A stretch of 40,164 nucleotides of DNA from the NCBI GenBank assembly GCA_902782465.1, contig CACZNH010000022.1:1-40164 (forward strand). Direction: 5' to 3'. Positions 1,197-36,018 of the stretch are shown piece by piece. Below the pieces are notes generated by a model. It did no database searches. It saw only the letters and a program-made list of their open reading frames with translations, and was not told where the DNA came from. Source of the DNA: an uncultured Bacteroidales bacterium. GTDB lineage: Bacteria > Bacteroidota > Bacteroidia > Bacteroidales > Muribaculaceae. The translations under genes and the position numbers were made by a program. Every line of letters begins with the position of its first letter. The first letter of the stretch is position 1.

Positions 1197-2594
1197 CTAG
1201 AATTGGAAGTAGATGAACTGCATGTTGCGGTCCAGACTGGCAATCGAGATGCCTGCCAGCAGTCCCCAGTAGATAATCCAGCGCACCACGGTGGGGAAGG
1301 GCAGTCGCTTGAGCGGGAATTCCTGCTTGCGGCCCAGCCACTCGATGATGAAGAACGGGATGATGAAGAACAGTGGCTGCCCGAACACGGGACGCACGCT
1401 CCACGAGCCGTTGACGATGACGTCACAGATTTCCCTGAGGTGTGTGAAGCCGTTGGAGCGGAAAATCAGGAAGACGGCGGCAAATATCAGGAACGTCAGC
1501 AGACAGCGCGGCAGGTCGCGCAGTGTGGCGTGTTCGCTGAGTTTTTTCTTAGGCATGAAGATGAAGGGCAGCAACAGCAGGCCGTTGACGGTGCCCCAGA
1601 TGACGAAGGTCCAGTTGGCGCCGTGCCACAGGCCCGAGAGCGAGAACACAATCATCGTGTTCAGCGCTGTGCGCCATTTGCCCAGTCGCGAGCCGCCCAG
1701 CGGGAAATAGACATAGTGCCTGAACCAGGTCATCAGCGAGATGTGCCACCGCTGCCACAGCTCCTTCATGTTGCGCGAGAAGAACGGATAGCGGAAGTTG
1801 GGCTGCAGCTTGATGTTCATCAGCCTTGCCGAGCCGATGGCGATGTCGCTGTAACCCGAGAAGTCGGCGTAAATCTGCACGGCAAACAGGATGGCCGCCC
1901 AAATCATGCTCCAGGACTGGTAGTAGTAGGGGTTATAGAGCAGCTGGTCAACGTAGTAGCCCACGTTGTCGGCGATGATGACCTTCTTGGCAAGACCCCA
2001 CAGGATTTGCCGCATGCCGATGACGGCGTTGTCATAGTCAAAGGTCTTCTTGCGCAGGAACTGCGGCAGCAGGTTGATGGCGCGCTCGATGGGGCCTGCC
2101 ACCAGCTGCGGGAAGAAGGCGATGAACACGCCGAAGGCCACCGGGTTGCGCGTCGCCTTGATGTCGCCACGATACACGTCCACCGTGTAGCTGATGGCCT
2201 GGAACGTATAGAACGAGATGCCCACCGGCAGCAGGATGTTCAGCGTCGGCCAGTCAGGATTGAAGCCAAACAGCCCCAGCAGATGCACGAAGCTGTCGCG
2301 CATGAAATTCAGGTACTTGAACACCGCCAGGATGCCCGCGTTGAGCACGATATTGGCGGCAGCCCAGCTCTTGTCGTGGCACGAGCGGTCACCGCGCATC
2401 ATCAGCGCCGACCCCCAGGTGGTGAACGACGTGAGCACGATGAGGCCCAGCAGGCGCCAGTCCCACCAGCCATAGAACACATAGCTGGCGACGAGCAGGA
2501 ACAGGTTCTGCCATTTCAGGTGGTTGCGCAGCCCCCAGTAGATGAAAAACACCAACGGGAGGAACAACGCGTAGGTATAAGTGTCAAATTGCAT
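1197..2594 (-). CDS. MBOAT family O-acyltransferase (AlgI-like)
   Basis: A 465-residue polytopic membrane protein of the membrane-bound O-acyltransferase family, similar in layout to alginate O-acetyltransferase AlgI. Visible family motifs are NMKELWQRWHISLMTWFRHY followed by FPLGG in the middle, and SGLWHGANW with the presumed catalytic histidine towards the C-terminus. Many hydrophobic segments flank these. The open frame extends further upstream, but the ATG at 2594 (protein start MQFDTYTYALFLP) is preferred because a good promoter lies at 2619-2650, inside the longer frame. It is the first gene of a two-gene operon with the SGNH-like partner. Likely role: transfer of acetyl groups to an exported or surface polysaccharide; the substrate is unknown. 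Confidence 0.92.
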   Translation of the reverse strand: MQFDTYTYALFLPLVFFIYWGLRNHLKWQNLFLLVASYVFYGWWDWRLLGLIVLTSFTTWGSALMMRGDRSCHDKSWAAANIVLNAGILAVFKYLNFMRDSFVHLLGLFGFNPDWPTLNILLPVGISFYTFQAISYTVDVYRGDIKATRNPVAFGVFIAFFPQLVAGPIERAINLLPQFLRKKTFDYDNAVIGMRQILWGLAKKVIIADNVGYYVDQLLYNPYYYQSWSMIWAAILFAVQIYADFSGYSDIAIGSARLMNIKLQPNFRYPFFSRNMKELWQRWHISLMTWFRHYVYFPLGGSRLGKWRTALNTMIVFSLSGLWHGANWTFVIWGTVNGLLLLPFIFMPKKKLSEHATLRDLPRCLLTFLIFAAVFLIFRSNGFTHLREICDVIVNGSWSVRPVFGQPLFFIIPFFIIEWLGRKQEFPLKRLPFPTVVRWIIYWGLLAGISIASLDRNMQFIYFQF

Positions 2595-2617: not shown

Positions 2618-2689
2618 GCAAAGGTAGTGCAAGTCGAGCGGAGAACCAAACAAAAATCCATTTTTGTTTGTTATCCCGAGACGCAGCCC
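2618..2689 (-). repeat. Promoter-bearing dispersed repeat, MBOAT copy
   Basis: Read on the reverse strand: head GGGCTGCGTCTCGGG (2675-2689), a perfect 10-bp inverted repeat with a 2-nt spacer (2648-2669), the 14-nt block CGCTCGACTTGCAC (2627-2640), then the -7 box TACCTTTG with no gap. The same order is found before coaX (10085-10165) and in decayed form at 14202-14260, 14604-14661, 33064-33121 and 35931-35952. Confidence 0.7.
2619..2650 (-). promoter_or_regulatory. Bacteroidota-type promoter for the MBOAT operon
   Basis: On the reverse strand, TACCTTTG (2619-2626) matches the -7 consensus TAnnTTTG, and TTTG (2647-2650) is the -33 box, 20 nt apart. Transcription would start about 20 nt before the ATG at 2594. 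The -33 box lies in one arm of a perfect inverted repeat (2648-2657 against 2660-2669). Confidence 0.8.
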
Positions 2690-2791
2690 ACTTTGCCCGA
2701 AAATGGCGAAACCACCGCAGGGAAAGACAGCTGATGCGACAAAATGCCACGTTGTGGGCCTTAGGCATGGTTTTTGCTCGTTTTTTGGTCG

Positions 2792-10031: not shown

Positions 10032-10084
10032 GACCGCATGAATTTTTTGTGGTTTACTAGGATTTGACTAATTTTAGATAAATT

Positions 10085-10165
10085 AGGCTGCGCCTCGGCA
10101 ATGCCAATAAAGAGGGCATTTTCTGCCCATTTTCTTGCCATTTCGCTCAGCTTGCACTAATTTTG
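10085..10165 (+). promoter_or_regulatory. coaX promoter inside the promoter-bearing repeat
   Basis: Head AGGCTGCGCCTCGG (10085-10098), an inverted repeat AATGCC/GGCATT (10100-10105 and 10115-10120), the 14-nt block CGCTCAGCTTGCAC (10144-10157), then TAATTTTG (10158-10165) as the -7 box. CTTG at 10134-10137 is a near -33 box at 20 nt. Transcription would begin only about 5 nt before the coaX ATG, giving a nearly leaderless message. Confidence 0.75.
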
Positions 10166-10173
10166 CGCTTTTA

Positions 10174-10926
10174 ATGAAAGGGAATCTGACGATTGACATC
10201 GGCAACACCTCGGTCAAGGTGGCTTATTACCTCGGCACGAAACTCGTGGCGACAACCCGTTTTGCGGGCAGTGACGGGCAGGTGTTGGACCGTTTTATCA
10301 GCACCTATAAGCCCGATACCGCCATCCTGTGCAGCACGGCATCGCCTGCTGTGACGCAGGATATCATCGGCCAGGTGGAAAGGCGTTGCCGTCGGGTGCT
10401 GCAGTTGACGCACGAGACCCCCATGCCGATCAGCCTGGCTTACCGCACGCCCCACACGCTGGGACGTGACCGCATCGCTACGGCGGTGGCAGCGTGGTGC
10501 CTTGTCAAGGACAGCGATGTGCTGGTCATTGACGCCGGCACGGCCATCACCTACGACCTGACGCTTGCCGACGGCAGTTTTGTCGGCGGTAACATCGCAC
10601 CGGGGTTGAAACTGCGTTTTGCCGCGCTGCACGAGCACACGGGACGCTTGCCGCTGGTGAACGCTGACGGTGAGATGCCGCTGGTGGGCTATGACACCCC
10701 GACTGCCATACGCAGCGGTGTGCTGTGGGGTGTGCTGGGCGAGGTCAGGAACTATATCGCCACGCTGTCCCAGGAGCATCCCGGGCTGAAGGTTTTCTTC
10801 ACCGGCGGTGACGGCAAGTGGCTGCACTCCCGTCTCGACGGTGTCATCGCAGAGTATTATGAACATTTGGCGGCTGAAGGACTCAACCGCATCCTATTAT
10901 ATAATCAAGCTAATGAGAATATTTAA
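10174..10926 (+). CDS. coaX: Type III pantothenate kinase
   Basis: A 250-residue ASKHA-fold kinase that phosphorylates pantothenate, the first step of coenzyme A synthesis. Seen: TIDIGNTSVK (phosphate loop), TLGRDRIATAVAAW, VIDAGTAITYDL and GGNIAPGLKLRFAALHEHTG followed by LPLV, and a late FTGGDG. The type III family lacks feedback inhibition by CoA. The ATG at 10174 was chosen because the family starts a few residues before DIGNT and the promoter lies just upstream. Its end overlaps the next gene by 14 nt. Confidence 0.95.
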   Translation: MKGNLTIDIGNTSVKVAYYLGTKLVATTRFAGSDGQVLDRFISTYKPDTAILCSTASPAVTQDIIGQVERRCRRVLQLTHETPMPISLAYRTPHTLGRDRIATAVAAWCLVKDSDVLVIDAGTAITYDLTLADGSFVGGNIAPGLKLRFAALHEHTGRLPLVNADGEMPLVGYDTPTAIRSGVLWGVLGEVRNYIATLSQEHPGLKVFFTGGDGKWLHSRLDGVIAEYYEHLAAEGLNRILLYNQANENI

Positions 10927-14149: not shown

Positions 14150-14182
14150 TTTGCAGGATTGCACAAGATTGTAGTATCTTTG
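14150..14182 (+). promoter_or_regulatory. Promoter for tRNA-Asp
   Basis: TTTG (14150-14153), 21 nt, then TATCTTTG (14175-14182), a full match to the Bacteroidota -33/-7 consensus. It gives a leader of about 85 nt before the mature tRNA. Confidence 0.8.
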
Positions 14183-14186
14183 CAGC

Positions 14187-14269
14187 GCATTTCCCGAATG
14201 CAGGTTGCGTCTCAGCCATAGAAAGTAATCTTTCATGGCGTTCGACTTGCACTGCATTTCCCGAATGCA
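14187..14269 (+). repeat. 16-bp direct repeats flanking a decayed promoter repeat
   Basis: GCATTTCCCGAATGCA occurs at 14187-14202 and again at 14254-14269; each copy can fold into a 6-bp hairpin. Between them lies a copy of the dispersed repeat: GGTTGCGTCTCAG, a stem CCAT-GAAAG/CTTTC-ATGG, and the block CGTTCGACTTGCAC (14239-14252), followed by TGCATTTC in place of the -7 box. This whole segment is in the tRNA leader. Confidence 0.75.
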
Positions 14270-14273
14270 ACCA

Positions 14274-14350
14274 GGTGTGTTAGTTCAGTTGGTTAGAATA
14301 CCTGCCTGTCACGCAGGGGGTCGCGTGTTCGAGTCACGTACACACCGCCA
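14274..14350 (+). tRNA. tRNA-Asp (anticodon GTC)
   Basis: A 77-nt cloverleaf with encoded CCA. Acceptor GGTGTGT (14274-14280) pairs with ACACACC (14340-14346), the discriminator is G and CCA is at 14348-14350. The anticodon stem CCTGC/GCAGG holds the loop CTGTCAC, so the anticodon is GTC for aspartate. The T-arm GCGTG/CACGT has the usual TTCGAGT loop. Confidence 0.96.
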
Positions 14351-14406: not shown

Positions 14407-14711
14407 GTCCCGTTAGGGACGGCAAGGGCATAGGCAGGAATGCAGTGAGGCATAGACGAACGGAATTCCTGTTCAATACGGCTCACCACAAGCATTTTTA
14501 GTCCCATCGGGGCGACAGTAACTTCTAACACACAACCTGTCGCCCCGATGGGGCTATGTTATTGGATGGTTCATAAACAGGAGTGGAACTTCACGCGAAG
14601 ATTGGCTGTGCCTTAGCTATTGGTTGCAAGCATCCATTGCATTCGGCTTGCACAACCTTTGTGCTTCGCTCCACCCCTGCCTATGAACTGCCAGCCCTAC
14701 GGGCTTAAAAG
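14407..14711. repeat. Quasi-palindromic REP-like intergenic element, copy 1
   Basis: This fills most of the 470-nt gap before the next gene. The centre is a perfect 16-bp inverted repeat (14503-14518 against 14537-14552, CCCATCGGGGCGACAG). The outer arms are related in inverted orientation: cataggcagg near 14430 and its complement near 14680. The right end, 14663-14711, is a near-perfect reverse complement of 40025-40073 (two differences in 49 nt). A decayed copy of the promoter-bearing repeat (14604-14661) interrupts the right arm. No coding potential is seen. It resembles REP/BIME-type elements common in Bacteroidota. Confidence 0.75.
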
Positions 14712-30503: not shown

Positions 30504-32729
30504 TTAACTCATTCGTGTCGCGTTGTTCACACCTTTCACTTTCTTGATTTCGCGGCACAGGTTGGTCACCACCGAGGCATCGCTGATGAGGACGTCCAGG
30601 TCACAACGGAATACGCCCTGGTCGGCAGTGACGTCCATGCGCTTCATGTTGATGGACATGTTGGTCGAGATGATGTTCACGATAGACTGCAGGATGCCCT
30701 TCTGGTCGATGCCCTCGATGTGGATGGTCGCCTGGAAGCGGTCGCTGTGGTCTTCCCACTGCGTCTCGAGCAGACGCGAGCCGTAGCTGGCCTTGAGTCT
30801 TGCCAGGGTGGGGCAGTCCATCTTGTGGACCACTACCTGGTTGTCGTCGGTGAGGAAGCCCACGGTGGCGTCGCCGGGGATGGGATGGCAGCAGTCGGCA
30901 ATCTGATAGTTGCTCACGCCTCCTTGGGTGGTGAGGCGGTAGATGGATTTGGTGTCGATGGCGGTACGGGCATCGCTGGTAGTCTGCTTGGGAGCCTCCT
31001 TGCCGCGGAAGGGGTTTCTCTTCCACCAGGTGACGCGGGAACCTTGTTCCGTCTTGCTCACCAGTTCCTCGTTAAGCGCGATTTCGCCGTTTCCGATCAT
31101 GAAGTACAGCTCCTCCTTGTTGGCAAGACGCTGGCGGGTGATGGCATGGGAGAGAACCTCGTTGTTCAGTTCGATGTTGTTTTCGTTGAGGAATTCCATG
31201 AAGCGTTTCTCGCCATCCTTGATGATGAGGCTGCGCTCGTGGCGCAGGGCAGAGCGCAGGCGGGTCTTGCCCTTGGCGGTGACCAGGAATTTCTCCCATT
31301 CCTGCTTGGGGGTGCACGAGTTGCTGGTCAGGATTTCCACCTGGTCGCCGCTCGACAGCTTGTAGGACAGCGGTACGAGTTTGTGGTTCACCTTGCCGGC
31401 GATGCAGTGTGTGCCCAGGTCGGTGTGCAGGATAAAGGCCACATCGAGCACCGATGCGCCCTTGGGCAGTGTCATGGCCTCGCCCTTGGGGGTGAAGACG
31501 ACAATCTCGCTGGCAAACAGGTTGAGCTTGATGGTGTCGAGGAAGTCGATGGCGTTGGGCTCGGGCTCCTTGAGGATGTCGGTGATGGTGCTCAGCCATG
31601 CCGACAGTTCGTCTTCTTCCTCGCCCTCACCGATTTTGTATTTCCAGTGTGCGGCAAATCCGCGCTCGGCGATGTCGTCCATCTTGCGGCTGCGTATCTG
31701 CACCTCCACCCAGTTGCCGTCGGGACCCATGACGGTGACGTGCAGGGCGCGGTACTTGTTCACCTTGGGGGTGGTGAGCCAGTCGCGCACGCGGTCAGGG
31801 TGCTTGGCATAGACCTCGGTGATTTCGTTGTAGATGTTCCAGCAGATGCGTTTCTCGGCGCTCTCGTCGTCGCACTCGAACACGATGCGCGCCGCGTACA
31901 GGTCATACACCTCCTCAAAGGGGATGTGCTTGGTCTGCATCTTGTTCCAAATCGAGAAGCACGACTTGACGCGCGTGTTGAATTCATACTTGAGCCCCAT
32001 GTTGTCCAGGCGCTCGCGGATGGGAGCCGAGAAGCGGGCGAACAGTTCGTTGCGGCTTTCCTCGCTGTCGGCAATCAGTTCCTTGATGCGCTGGTGTTCG
32101 ACGGGATGGTTGTACTTGAAACTGAGGTCCTCAAGCTCGGTCTTGATGGCATACAGGCCCAGGCGGTGTGCCAGCGGGGCGTAGATGTATAGCGTCTCGC
32201 CGGCAATCTTGTACTGCTTGTTGGCAGGCATCGACGACAGGGTGCGCATGTTGTGCAGGCGGTCGGCCATCTTGATGAGCACGACGCGGACATCCTCGCT
32301 CATGGTGAGCAGCAACTTACGGAAGTTCTCGGCTTGCAGCGACGCCTTGTCGCCGAAGATGCCGCCCGAGATTTTGGTCAGACCGTCCACGATGCGGGCA
32401 ATTTTGGTGCCGAACTGCGCCTCGATGTCCTCGACAGTGTAGTCGGTGTCCTCGACCACGTCATGCAGCAGCGCCGCACTGATGCTCGTTGAGCCCAGGC
32501 CGATTTCCTGAATCACGATGGTGGCCACGGCGATGGGATGCAGGATGTAGGGCTCGCCGGAGCGGCGGCGGATGCCCTTGTGGGCCTCGCGCGCAAACTT
32601 ATAGGCCTTGTCGATAATCTCCACTTTCTTGCGGTGATTGCTTGACAAATAGAGGTTTAACAGGTTCTGATAGGCCTGGTCAATCATCTGGTCTTCCTCT
32701 TCGGGCGTTATGTTACTGTTCTGCATCAT
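30504..32729 (-). CDS. Bifunctional (p)ppGpp synthetase/hydrolase (RelA/SpoT)
   Basis: A 741-residue long RSH protein. The HD hydrolase domain has H50, PYILHP and LLHDVVEDT (H89-D90, E93-D94), so hydrolase activity looks intact. The synthetase domain has FEEVYDLYAARI, NKYRALHVTV and VEVQIRSRKMDDIAERGFAA followed by HWKYK. A TGS domain (GEAMTLPKGASVLDVAF) and a C-terminal ACT domain (from about 665) follow, with ADCCHPIPGD in between. It makes and degrades the stringent-response alarmones. Two-hairpin promoter repeat upstream; PgpH-like gene directly downstream. Confidence 0.95.
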   Translation of the reverse strand: MMQNSNITPEEEDQMIDQAYQNLLNLYLSSNHRKKVEIIDKAYKFAREAHKGIRRRSGEPYILHPIAVATIVIQEIGLGSTSISAALLHDVVEDTDYTVEDIEAQFGTKIARIVDGLTKISGGIFGDKASLQAENFRKLLLTMSEDVRVVLIKMADRLHNMRTLSSMPANKQYKIAGETLYIYAPLAHRLGLYAIKTELEDLSFKYNHPVEHQRIKELIADSEESRNELFARFSAPIRERLDNMGLKYEFNTRVKSCFSIWNKMQTKHIPFEEVYDLYAARIVFECDDESAEKRICWNIYNEITEVYAKHPDRVRDWLTTPKVNKYRALHVTVMGPDGNWVEVQIRSRKMDDIAERGFAAHWKYKIGEGEEEDELSAWLSTITDILKEPEPNAIDFLDTIKLNLFASEIVVFTPKGEAMTLPKGASVLDVAFILHTDLGTHCIAGKVNHKLVPLSYKLSSGDQVEILTSNSCTPKQEWEKFLVTAKGKTRLRSALRHERSLIIKDGEKRFMEFLNENNIELNNEVLSHAITRQRLANKEELYFMIGNGEIALNEELVSKTEQGSRVTWWKRNPFRGKEAPKQTTSDARTAIDTKSIYRLTTQGGVSNYQIADCCHPIPGDATVGFLTDDNQVVVHKMDCPTLARLKASYGSRLLETQWEDHSDRFQATIHIEGIDQKGILQSIVNIISTNMSINMKRMDVTADQGVFRCDLDVLISDASVVTNLCREIKKVKGVNNATRMS

Positions 32730-32756: not shown

Positions 32757-32880
32757 CAAAGGTAGTGTAAAATTCCGATTAAGCGAGAACAATGAGAGTT
32801 TATTCTCATTGTCGAGCGTGAGGAATTTATCTAAGCCGAGCGAAATGCCAAATATATTTGAGCATTTCCAAGGCACAGCC
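32757..32880 (-). promoter_or_regulatory. relA/spoT promoter with two-hairpin repeat variant
   Basis: Reverse strand: -7 box TACCTTTG (32757-32764), no clear -33 box. Hairpin ACAATGAGA/TCTCATTGT (32789-32797 and 32804-32812), then GAAATGC/GCATTTC (32842-32848 and 32862-32868) around the palindrome CAAATATATTTG, then head GGCTGTGCCTTGG (32868-32880). A second TACCTTTG lies at 32896-32903. Confidence 0.7.
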
Positions 32881-32914
32881 TACCTTAGCCGAAGGCAAAG
32901 GTAGTAATTTATTT

Positions 32915-32949: not shown

Positions 32950-33196
32950 ATCCGCATTCCTTTGCCTCACGCTAAGACGCTAAGATTCTTAGTCGGCCTG
33001 GCGGCCGAGAAATCACTCAAATGGATACAAATCGAGCAAATCAATGAAAATATTTGCATAATCTTGGCGGCGCCTCTTCCAACGAAGTAAGCTTCATGGC
33101 TTTCGGCTTGCACAAGATTTGTTGGATTTGTCCCGATTTGTAGGATTTGGCTTCGCCGCTAAAGGTTCGTAGTTTAAACCCGAATGCGGATGCCAA
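32945..33196. repeat. MITE-like 252-bp repeat with 15-bp inverted ends, copy 1
   Basis: Perfect terminal inverted repeats: TTGGCATCCGCATTC (32945-32959) and GAATGCGGATGCCAA (33182-33196). Inside, a CGCTAAGA tandem, CTAAGATTCTTAG palindrome, a CGGCC/GGCCG hairpin, and a decayed promoter-bearing repeat (33064-33121, block CTTTCGGCTTGCAC at 33100-33113). The left 60 nt are nearly identical to 35815-35884. No open frame of note. This and the relA promoter repeat account for the 488-nt gap 32730-33217. Confidence 0.75.
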
Positions 33197-35814: not shown

Positions 35815-36018
35815 CCGCATTCCTTTGCCCCACGCTAAGGCGCTAAGACGCTAAGATTTTTAGTCGGCCTGGCGGCCGAGAAATCCAACAAATCGCATCC
35901 AATCCAACAAATCTTGTGCAAGCTTCATGGCATTCAGTTTGCACAATCTTTCTCGCCCGTAGGGCGACTCTAATACTCGACAAAGAAGACATCCGCAGCC
36001 CCGTAGCAGGGAATGCGG
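35815..36018. repeat. MITE-like repeat, copy 2 (204 bp)
   Basis: Inverted ends CCGCATTCC (35815-35823) and GGAATGCGG (36010-36018). The left 70 nt match copy 1 at 32953-33013, with one extra 9-bp CGCTAAG unit. Inside are ATCCAACAAATC twice (its complement is in copy 1) and a decayed promoter block CATTCAGTTTGCAC (35931-35944). It ends 44 nt from the lipoprotein stop codon at 36063. Confidence 0.75.

Follow-up and report, generated by a model that had tools for sequence, protein, structure and literature searches.

A dispersed hairpin element with a sigma-ABfr-type promoter layout that appears to insert and stack at Bacteroidales promoters

Correia repeat enclosed elements of Neisseria consist of an inverted repeat with a conserved core, can create promoters at either or both ends and show evidence of mobilisation, according to PMC2649163. 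Within the Bacteroidales, the BrickBuilt MITEs of Porphyromonas gingivalis are intergenic, had promoter activity in E. coli reporters and include one copy before argS; they are made of 23-nt direct repeats with a leader and a tail, and the relevant passages of the source report no repeat matches outside P. gingivalis (PMC4596501). REP, BIME and REPIN sequences are dispersed hairpin units that also occur in clusters (excerpts of PMC6006769), and REPINs are described as persisting for long times in a passage of PMC8049555, which also cites mobile promoters as short promoter repeats copied within genomes (Matus-Garcia, Nijveen and van Passel, 2012).

The element described here was found in a 40,164-nt stretch of DNA from an uncultured Bacteroidales bacterium, referred to as the window, and belongs to a dispersed family of palindromic units of 66-90 nt. 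Each unit has the order GGCGAAGGTAGGCTGCGCCTCGG, an AT-rich hairpin and CGCTCGGCTTGCACTACCTTTGC, and as a single strand it represents one long hairpin, with outer arms AAGnTAG...CTAnCTT, the head GCC pairing with the tail GGC, and an inner hairpin whose sequence varies freely. Single-strand folds of four sequences were long hairpins with z scores of -3.5, -3.6 and -2.5, and of -1.7 for the coaX copy. The sigma-ABfr consensus, as given in the passage concerned, has a -7 box TAnnTTTG and a TTTG near -33 (PMC7366714), and the 3' half of the element is laid out as a full promoter of this type: TTTG, a conserved spacer ending in CTCGRCTTGCAC, and TAnnTTTG, with 19-20 nt between the two boxes. Among intact gene-proximal copies, a TTG precedes the -7 box by 18-21 nt in 25/28 cases of the source genome and 74/87 cases on named contigs, nearly always by 19 or 20 nt. 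With this spacing, the right arm of the inner hairpin holds the -33 box and that of the outer stem the -7 box. Judged by consensus and spacing, the 3' half appears to be a sigma-ABfr-type promoter. The copies in the window, their parts and the adjoining genes are as follows.

2619..2696, minus strand: complete MBOAT-side element with outer arm, head, hairpin, spacer block and -7 box (covariance model 67 bits, E 3.8e-17)
2676..2688, minus strand: head GGCTGCGTCTCGG of the MBOAT copy, left arm of the middle stem (exact match)
2639..2676, minus strand: AT-rich variable inner hairpin AACAAACAAAAATGGATTTTTGTTTGG of the MBOAT copy with its flanks (fold and coordinates)
2627..2640, minus strand: 14-nt block CGCTCGACTTGCAC of the MBOAT copy (sequence)
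2647..2650, minus strand: -33 box TTTG of the MBOAT copy, 20 nt ahead of the -7 box and within the right arm of the inner hairpin (sequence, spacing statistics)
2619..2626, minus strand: -7 box TACCTTTG of the MBOAT copy, in the right outer arm (sequence)
1197..2594, minus strand: downstream gene for an MBOAT/DltB-like protein (gene call; NCBIfam TIGR04091, E 6.5e-43, under the curated cut-off)
10078..10165, plus strand: complete coaX-side element (covariance model 64.9 bits, E 1.7e-16)
10086..10098, plus strand: head GGCTGCGCCTCGG of the coaX copy (sequence)
10144..10157, plus strand: block CGCTCAGCTTGCAC of the coaX copy (sequence)
10135..10137, plus strand: -33 box TTG of the coaX copy, 20 nt before the -7 box (sequence)
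10158..10165, plus strand: -7 box TAATTTTG of the coaX copy (sequence)
10069..10076, plus strand: TAATTTTA, candidate displaced ancestral coaX -7 box with the last G lost (by-eye comparison with orthologous promoters)
10174..10926, plus strand: downstream gene coaX, type III pantothenate kinase (open reading frame list, start by homology; NCBIfam TIGR00671 above cut-off)
14195..14260, plus strand: copy before tRNA-Asp with the octamer TGCATTTC, not a -7 box, and a flanking direct repeat GCATTTCCCGAATGCA (E 2.8e-12)
14596..14661, plus strand: non-promoter (GCACAA) copy with octamer AACCTTTG (sequence; model score by construction)
33058..33121, plus strand: non-promoter (GCACAA) copy with octamer AAGATTTG and co-changed outer arm, AATCTTG with CAAGATT (sequence; model score by construction)
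32833..32877, minus strand: partial, decayed element before gene 30504-32729 (E 1.3e-5, model positions 12-56)

A sequence-only reading of the window had proposed that the MBOAT and coaX copies share the order head, inverted repeat, block and -7 box. This was borne out by the sequence, the inverted repeats of the two copies differing from each other, and both were recovered by a covariance model built without them (31 copies; 380 kb searched); the model scores of the 14596 and 33058 copies are not independent, as both are among its 31 rows (L316, L317). The proposed location of the MBOAT -33 box inside a hairpin arm was likewise confirmed (TTTG, 2647-2650). The block had further been reported at 14239, 14640, 33100 and 35931, each time with a -7-like octamer. 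It does recur at these places, and the first three copies (14202, 14603 and 33065) also carry the head, but none of the four has a consensus -7 box, the octamers of the three headed copies not fitting TAnnTTTG. The 14195 copy lies between TATCTTTG (14175-14182) and tRNA-Asp, so that the element may be transcribed; in the region 14160-14350 the tRNA-Asp is preceded by an element between direct repeats. An array-like region (32757-32903, minus strand) was observed before gene 30504-32729, with TACCTTTG at 32757-32764 near the gene, a second TACCTTTG upstream at 32896-32903 and the decayed unit 32833-32877 between both boxes.

Two forms of the element can be distinguished, the promoter form GCACTAnnTTTG (GCACTA) and a second form GCACAAnnTTT without a -7 box, in which the outer arm has changed in step (AATCTTGG with CAAGATT, AAGCTTGG with CAAGCTT). 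The second form is represented in the window by 14603 and 33065 and, read by eye, by the headless relic at 35931. Since the hairpin persists in this form although the -7 box is lacking, it is conserved also without the promoter, and promoter donation is a property of one form and not of the whole family.

That the hairpin varies in sequence while keeping its shape, as had been suggested, was supported by two analyses. Inner halves paired with their own partner at -11.3 kcal/mol versus -4.8 kcal/mol across copies (z -17; 39 non-redundant copies), the own partner being the best in 25/39. The same pairing test for the outer arm against the right -7 box gave a weaker result (z -4.9; own partner best in 0/87). 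For covariation, 91 candidates with an inner length of 26-36 were thinned to 32 and the headless L123 was dropped, which left 31 diverse units for the alignment, among them 7 of the non-promoter form. Paired cells amounted to 85.6%, compared with 77.2% after shuffling and at most 48.6% after sliding. The covariation score was 0.286 versus 0.129 +/- 0.012 in shuffles (0/500 as high) and 40 cells were changed on both sides versus 11.4, counts that overstate independent events because the shuffles leave the relatedness of the rows in place. Pairs with a two-sided change (9 versus 6.1 shuffled; 14/500 as high) were barely above the shuffles, and further pair types showed no excess (20 versus 18.8; 171/500 as high). 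Columns 6/73, which include an n of TAnnTTTG, were paired as AU in 14 units, GC in 8, CG in 3 and UA in 3. The outer stem was paired in 91.8% of cells of the 31 copies, reflecting the presence of terminal inverted repeats; the third helix was weak (58% paired) and is moved in the RNAalifold fold.

The copy search in the genome and its relatives that had been proposed gave many copies, mostly upstream of genes. The source genome (3.13 Mb, 45 contigs, 94.8% complete) contains 64 places with up to two mismatches to CGCTCRRCTTGCACTA, 15 of them exact, versus 13 for a reversed-pattern control, and 35 places with up to one mismatch to the head versus 3 for the control; 40 stretches were taken around most of these places. 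With one mismatch, the pattern occurred in 34 of 61 genomes, namely 33/37 of the same genus (source genome included) and one from another family, and the exact pattern in 34/198 genomes of the family and 8/30 genera. The covariance model matched at least 22/198 genomes of the order from at least 17 families, with at least eight matches in one genome for six families, the counts per genome being lower bounds based on up to 25 candidates each. At least 117 stretches were found on named contigs, and the 80 titles listed were all Bacteroidales. The named contigs include orthologues of the argS promoter of the source genome (L065, L096), which likewise suggests that this genome belongs to Bacteroidales. 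Dispersal is also reflected by a single hairpin core shared by 20 copies at 15 stretches of the source genome, and by near-identical variable cores at unrelated loci. A GCACAAGCTTTC subfamily of the source genome (L319, L324, L329, L330, L332, L336, L337, L339) lies inside a longer repeat with a conserved right flank; some of its copies are at contig ends, so the assembly may break there.

No element match was detected in the plasmid collection, and exact CTCGRCTTGCACTAYCTTTG was not found in IMG/VR viral contigs. The phage collection gave the pattern in 10 unannotated faecal scaffolds. Scanning of 10/20 listed open reading frames from three of these led to domains in seven (Abhydrolase, Mur ligase, DUF4099 with DUF3945, topoisomerase, RecX and, twice, Calycin_like) and to none in three, and these domains do not support carriage by phage. 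One faecal scaffold deposited as phage (L364, MT835707.1) has the element near DUF4099, DUF3945 and topoisomerase genes, a set typical of conjugative elements, and this context is a possible transfer route. Rfam searches reported only the tRNA in the window, with no element above the gathering score, and no family at any element in 8/40 stretches of the source genome; a SAM-II riboswitch match above the gathering score was observed at L011:1450-1509. Neither the literature searched, as judged on titles and abstract openings, nor a text search with four core sequences led to a published description of the element.

Tandem units are spaced 65-93 nt apart. Upstream -7 boxes were broken in 9/11 units of the source genome and 30/39 named units, compared with 3/31 gene-proximal boxes of the source genome (Fisher p 2.3e-5 versus its own upstream boxes); named gene-proximal copies were excluded, since they had been found via an intact box. 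The spacer block of upstream units, which allowed up to two mismatches in 12 for a unit to be found, had 3-5% mismatch per site. In other families, 19/28 upstream and 3/23 gene-proximal boxes were broken (counted by hand; Fisher p 1.5e-4), based on model hits with preference for arrays in twenty stretches from six genomes of four families (G390, G309, G349, G369, G470, G422), excluding one weak hit of 52 (L357, E 0.002); this set may overlap with the named one, as G390 (L343) shares elements with Barnesiella sp. An55 (L062). The lesions vary (TTTG to TTTA, TTTC or TTTT; TACCGTTG; loss of one n), and 20/78 upstream units overall retained an intact box, so that one live box per array is a tendency.

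Insertion was analysed by comparing the promoters of coaX, argS, dnaN and pgk, for which 59, 96, 87 and 85 of 101 genus genomes had orthologue matches, in 30 orthologous loci of each. At argS, L219 and L221 carry an exact 80-nt insert relative to the empty L226, with both flanks aligning; it is located between TTTTTTG and TACCTTTGCAGTTTG, and TACCTTTGC is now present on both sides. The source genome (L218) has the same element at argS, the left flank failing to align with L226. A decayed argS copy was detected by the model in L245 and apparently, by eye, in L233 and L241. For coaX, one unit is present in the source genome (L158) and two in L160; decayed units were found by the model in L171, L173, L175 and L185 and apparently also in L174, and the model had no match in the remaining 23 of the 30 loci. 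When L158 was aligned automatically with L159, the result did not resolve into one clean insertion; comparison of the promoter sequences by eye indicates insertion at coaX, and the old box of the source genome appears to persist to the left as TAATTTTA. Units at dnaN were found in L248 and L277; in L252, L253 and L270 an A-rich tract of the locus is joined to the right half alone, some 20-25 nt long. At pgk the element was present in L278 only, which has no close empty partner.

In 23 cases the nn of a left TAnnKTTN box was not that of the right -7 box, and here the head arm matched the right box in 18, the left in 1 and neither in 4; where the boxes agreed in nn (55 cases), it matched both in 34 and neither in 21. 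A looser left-box pattern, which also took octamers unlike a -7 box, gave 24 right, 0 left and 8 neither in 32 cases. In most cases, then, the -7 box seems to travel with the element rather than to be a mere duplicate of the target. We did not retain the reading as a MITE with a simple target duplication of 9 bp, since the head arm follows the right box in 18/23 cases where the boxes differ.

Our preferred explanation, at a probability of about three in four, is an amplified palindromic element of the Bacteroidales with a promoter layout, which inserts at promoters and stacks in tandem. In the clearest case, argS, the unit has been placed directly behind the -7 box of a promoter that was already there. 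The -7 box of the element then adjoins the old leader, so that transcription of the gene would start from the element; the old box is left upstream and seems to decay at other loci, such a takeover being perhaps the usual course. Units are also stacked in tandem, with mostly only the gene-proximal box staying intact. The loss of upstream boxes may be selected, and their decay would follow if tandem promoters interfere or give a structured leader. The hairpin probably matters for spread, perhaps via single-stranded DNA.

A broader version, an order-wide class of hairpins of conserved structure that home to live -7 boxes and supply their own promoter while the old one is switched off, could hold, but we would bet modestly against it. 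Takeover is not universal, which also weighs against the preferred explanation: at argS the old box is still intact after the insertion, showing that decay does not follow automatically, the tRNA-Asp copy has no -7 box, and the coaX loci L171, L173, L174, L175 and L185 have a decayed element with a changed box (e.g. CACAAATTTTG) upstream of a kept TAATTTTG, so that takeover is absent or reversed there. If the broader version is true, insertion into promoters of essential genes would be harmless and the element would be kept by the genes it has captured.

How the units are copied may be explained without a dedicated enzyme, by ectopic recombination or template switching in which a unit flanked by two TAnnTTTGC boxes is copied into a TAnnTTTGC box elsewhere. 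The TACCTTTGC on each side of the argS insert, the dnaN half-units joined to the A-rich tract and the tandem spacing fit this explanation, and TAnnTTTGC at both ends together with the half-units would suit template switching or ectopic recombination, perhaps aided by hairpins in single-stranded DNA. Homologies of nine nt are however very short, and such copying alone leaves the order-wide compensatory retention of the hairpin unexplained; we regard it as a tentative alternative with the odds against it.

An unlikely explanation is that the units are REPIN- or BIME-like palindromes that Y1 transposases (HUH, RAYT-type) mobilise in trans, with promoters as a side effect. Hairpin, intergenic location, tandem arrangement and high copy number are all REPIN-like, Y1_Tnp matches were found in 92/101 genomes of the genus, and a Bacteroidetes Y1 subclass is described with atypical repeated structures flanking it in a passage of PMC6006769. 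However, stretches of about 3.2 kb around the 5 Y1 matches of the source genome gave no model match up to E 1, and the 30 best-scoring Y1 loci of the genus gave a strong match in one (L195, about 1.3 kb away) and weak matches in two (E 0.14 and 0.65). Pattern copies also occur in genomes despite no Y1 match (8 in G014, 99% complete; 20 in G028, 78%; 16 in G012, 83%), and the outer-arm nn varies freely (GATAG, GGTAG, AATTAG; also CTTGG) with no fixed GTAG or CGTC tag. Another kind of tandem repeat is present at the Y1 locus L192: at 2009-2240 a Y1 transposase gene is followed by its own 73-bp repeat (GGCTTCGCCTCGGCACTGGGGG...), possibly a RAYT-repeat pair and unrelated to the element. The element does not show those defining features of REPIN/RAYT systems that were examined.

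The genomic placement of the element is in line with the preferred explanation. The next called gene was on the same strand for 27/28 intact gene-proximal copies of the source genome, coaX being the sole exception because the gene caller chose an antisense frame there. Named contigs had 87 such copies outside called genes. Of these, 82 were followed by a called gene, which lay on the same strand in 78 cases; four further copies fell within called genes, and in-gene copies (4/46 in the source genome, 13/143 in others) were excluded from the counts. Gene starts were mostly 5-125 nt downstream, three beyond 1 kb. A scan of ten downstream proteins gave matches that reach a listed NCBIfam cut-off for ArgS, DnaN, SufB, RbfA, glycine C-acetyltransferase and pantothenate kinase, and matches below the cut-offs shown for the phosphoglycerate kinase-like, glutamine synthetase-like, phosphotransacylase-like and MBOAT proteins. 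The cassette postulated at the outset, amplified and donating promoters, is largely supported by its many copies, the argS insertion and the same-strand genes, with donation confined to one form. An A/T-rich inner hairpin directly before a promoter might also suggest a terminator-promoter insulator that ends transcription of the upstream gene; this is very improbable, as 53 upstream neighbours were co-directional and 50 divergent, like the background (241:250), and the element is therefore not positioned as a terminator of the preceding gene. An operator of a common regulator, a regulon signal arisen at many promoters with its conserved head and tail adjoining them, has hardly any chance of being correct in view of filled versus empty argS promoters, near-identical variable cores at unrelated loci, non-promoter copies, compensatory pairing in the variable part and the mixed functions of the ten scanned proteins.

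Compared with the described systems, the inserting palindrome shares an inverted repeat, a conserved core and promoter generation with Correia elements. The latter have an unrelated sequence, belong to another phylum and use other promoter types; unlike them, the element is a short unit that forms tandem stacks and, in the clearest case, is found directly behind a -7 box that was already present. Mobile promoters are reportedly defined by sequence identity, and as with these the same promoter-like sequence precedes unrelated genes within one genome; the element differs by its conserved structure, its insertion at a promoter and the decay of older boxes. From its sequence features, it seems to resemble mobile promoters and Correia elements in its working. 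In contrast to REPINs it does not consist of two inverted REPs, lacks a GTAG/CGTC tag, has a promoter layout in one arm and, at almost all the loci examined, lies far from any transposase gene, a strong match being near 1 of 35 Y1 loci. BrickBuilt elements are similar in being intergenic, MITE-like and from Bacteroidales, but the passages describing them mention no whole-element hairpin with a -7 box in its arm (PMC4596501), and the present evidence does not allow the element to be classed as a DDE-type MITE.

Copies of one small repeat appear to have supplied housekeeping genes (argS, dnaN, sufB, rbfA, coaX and others) with promoters, and this in an order common in the gut and the rumen. Promoter comparisons in Bacteroidales must allow for such insertion, and tandem promoter-like arrays mostly hold one intact -7 box. 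The element would offer a concrete mechanism for regulatory rewiring by the copying of small pieces of DNA, together with natural before-and-after pairs of promoters.
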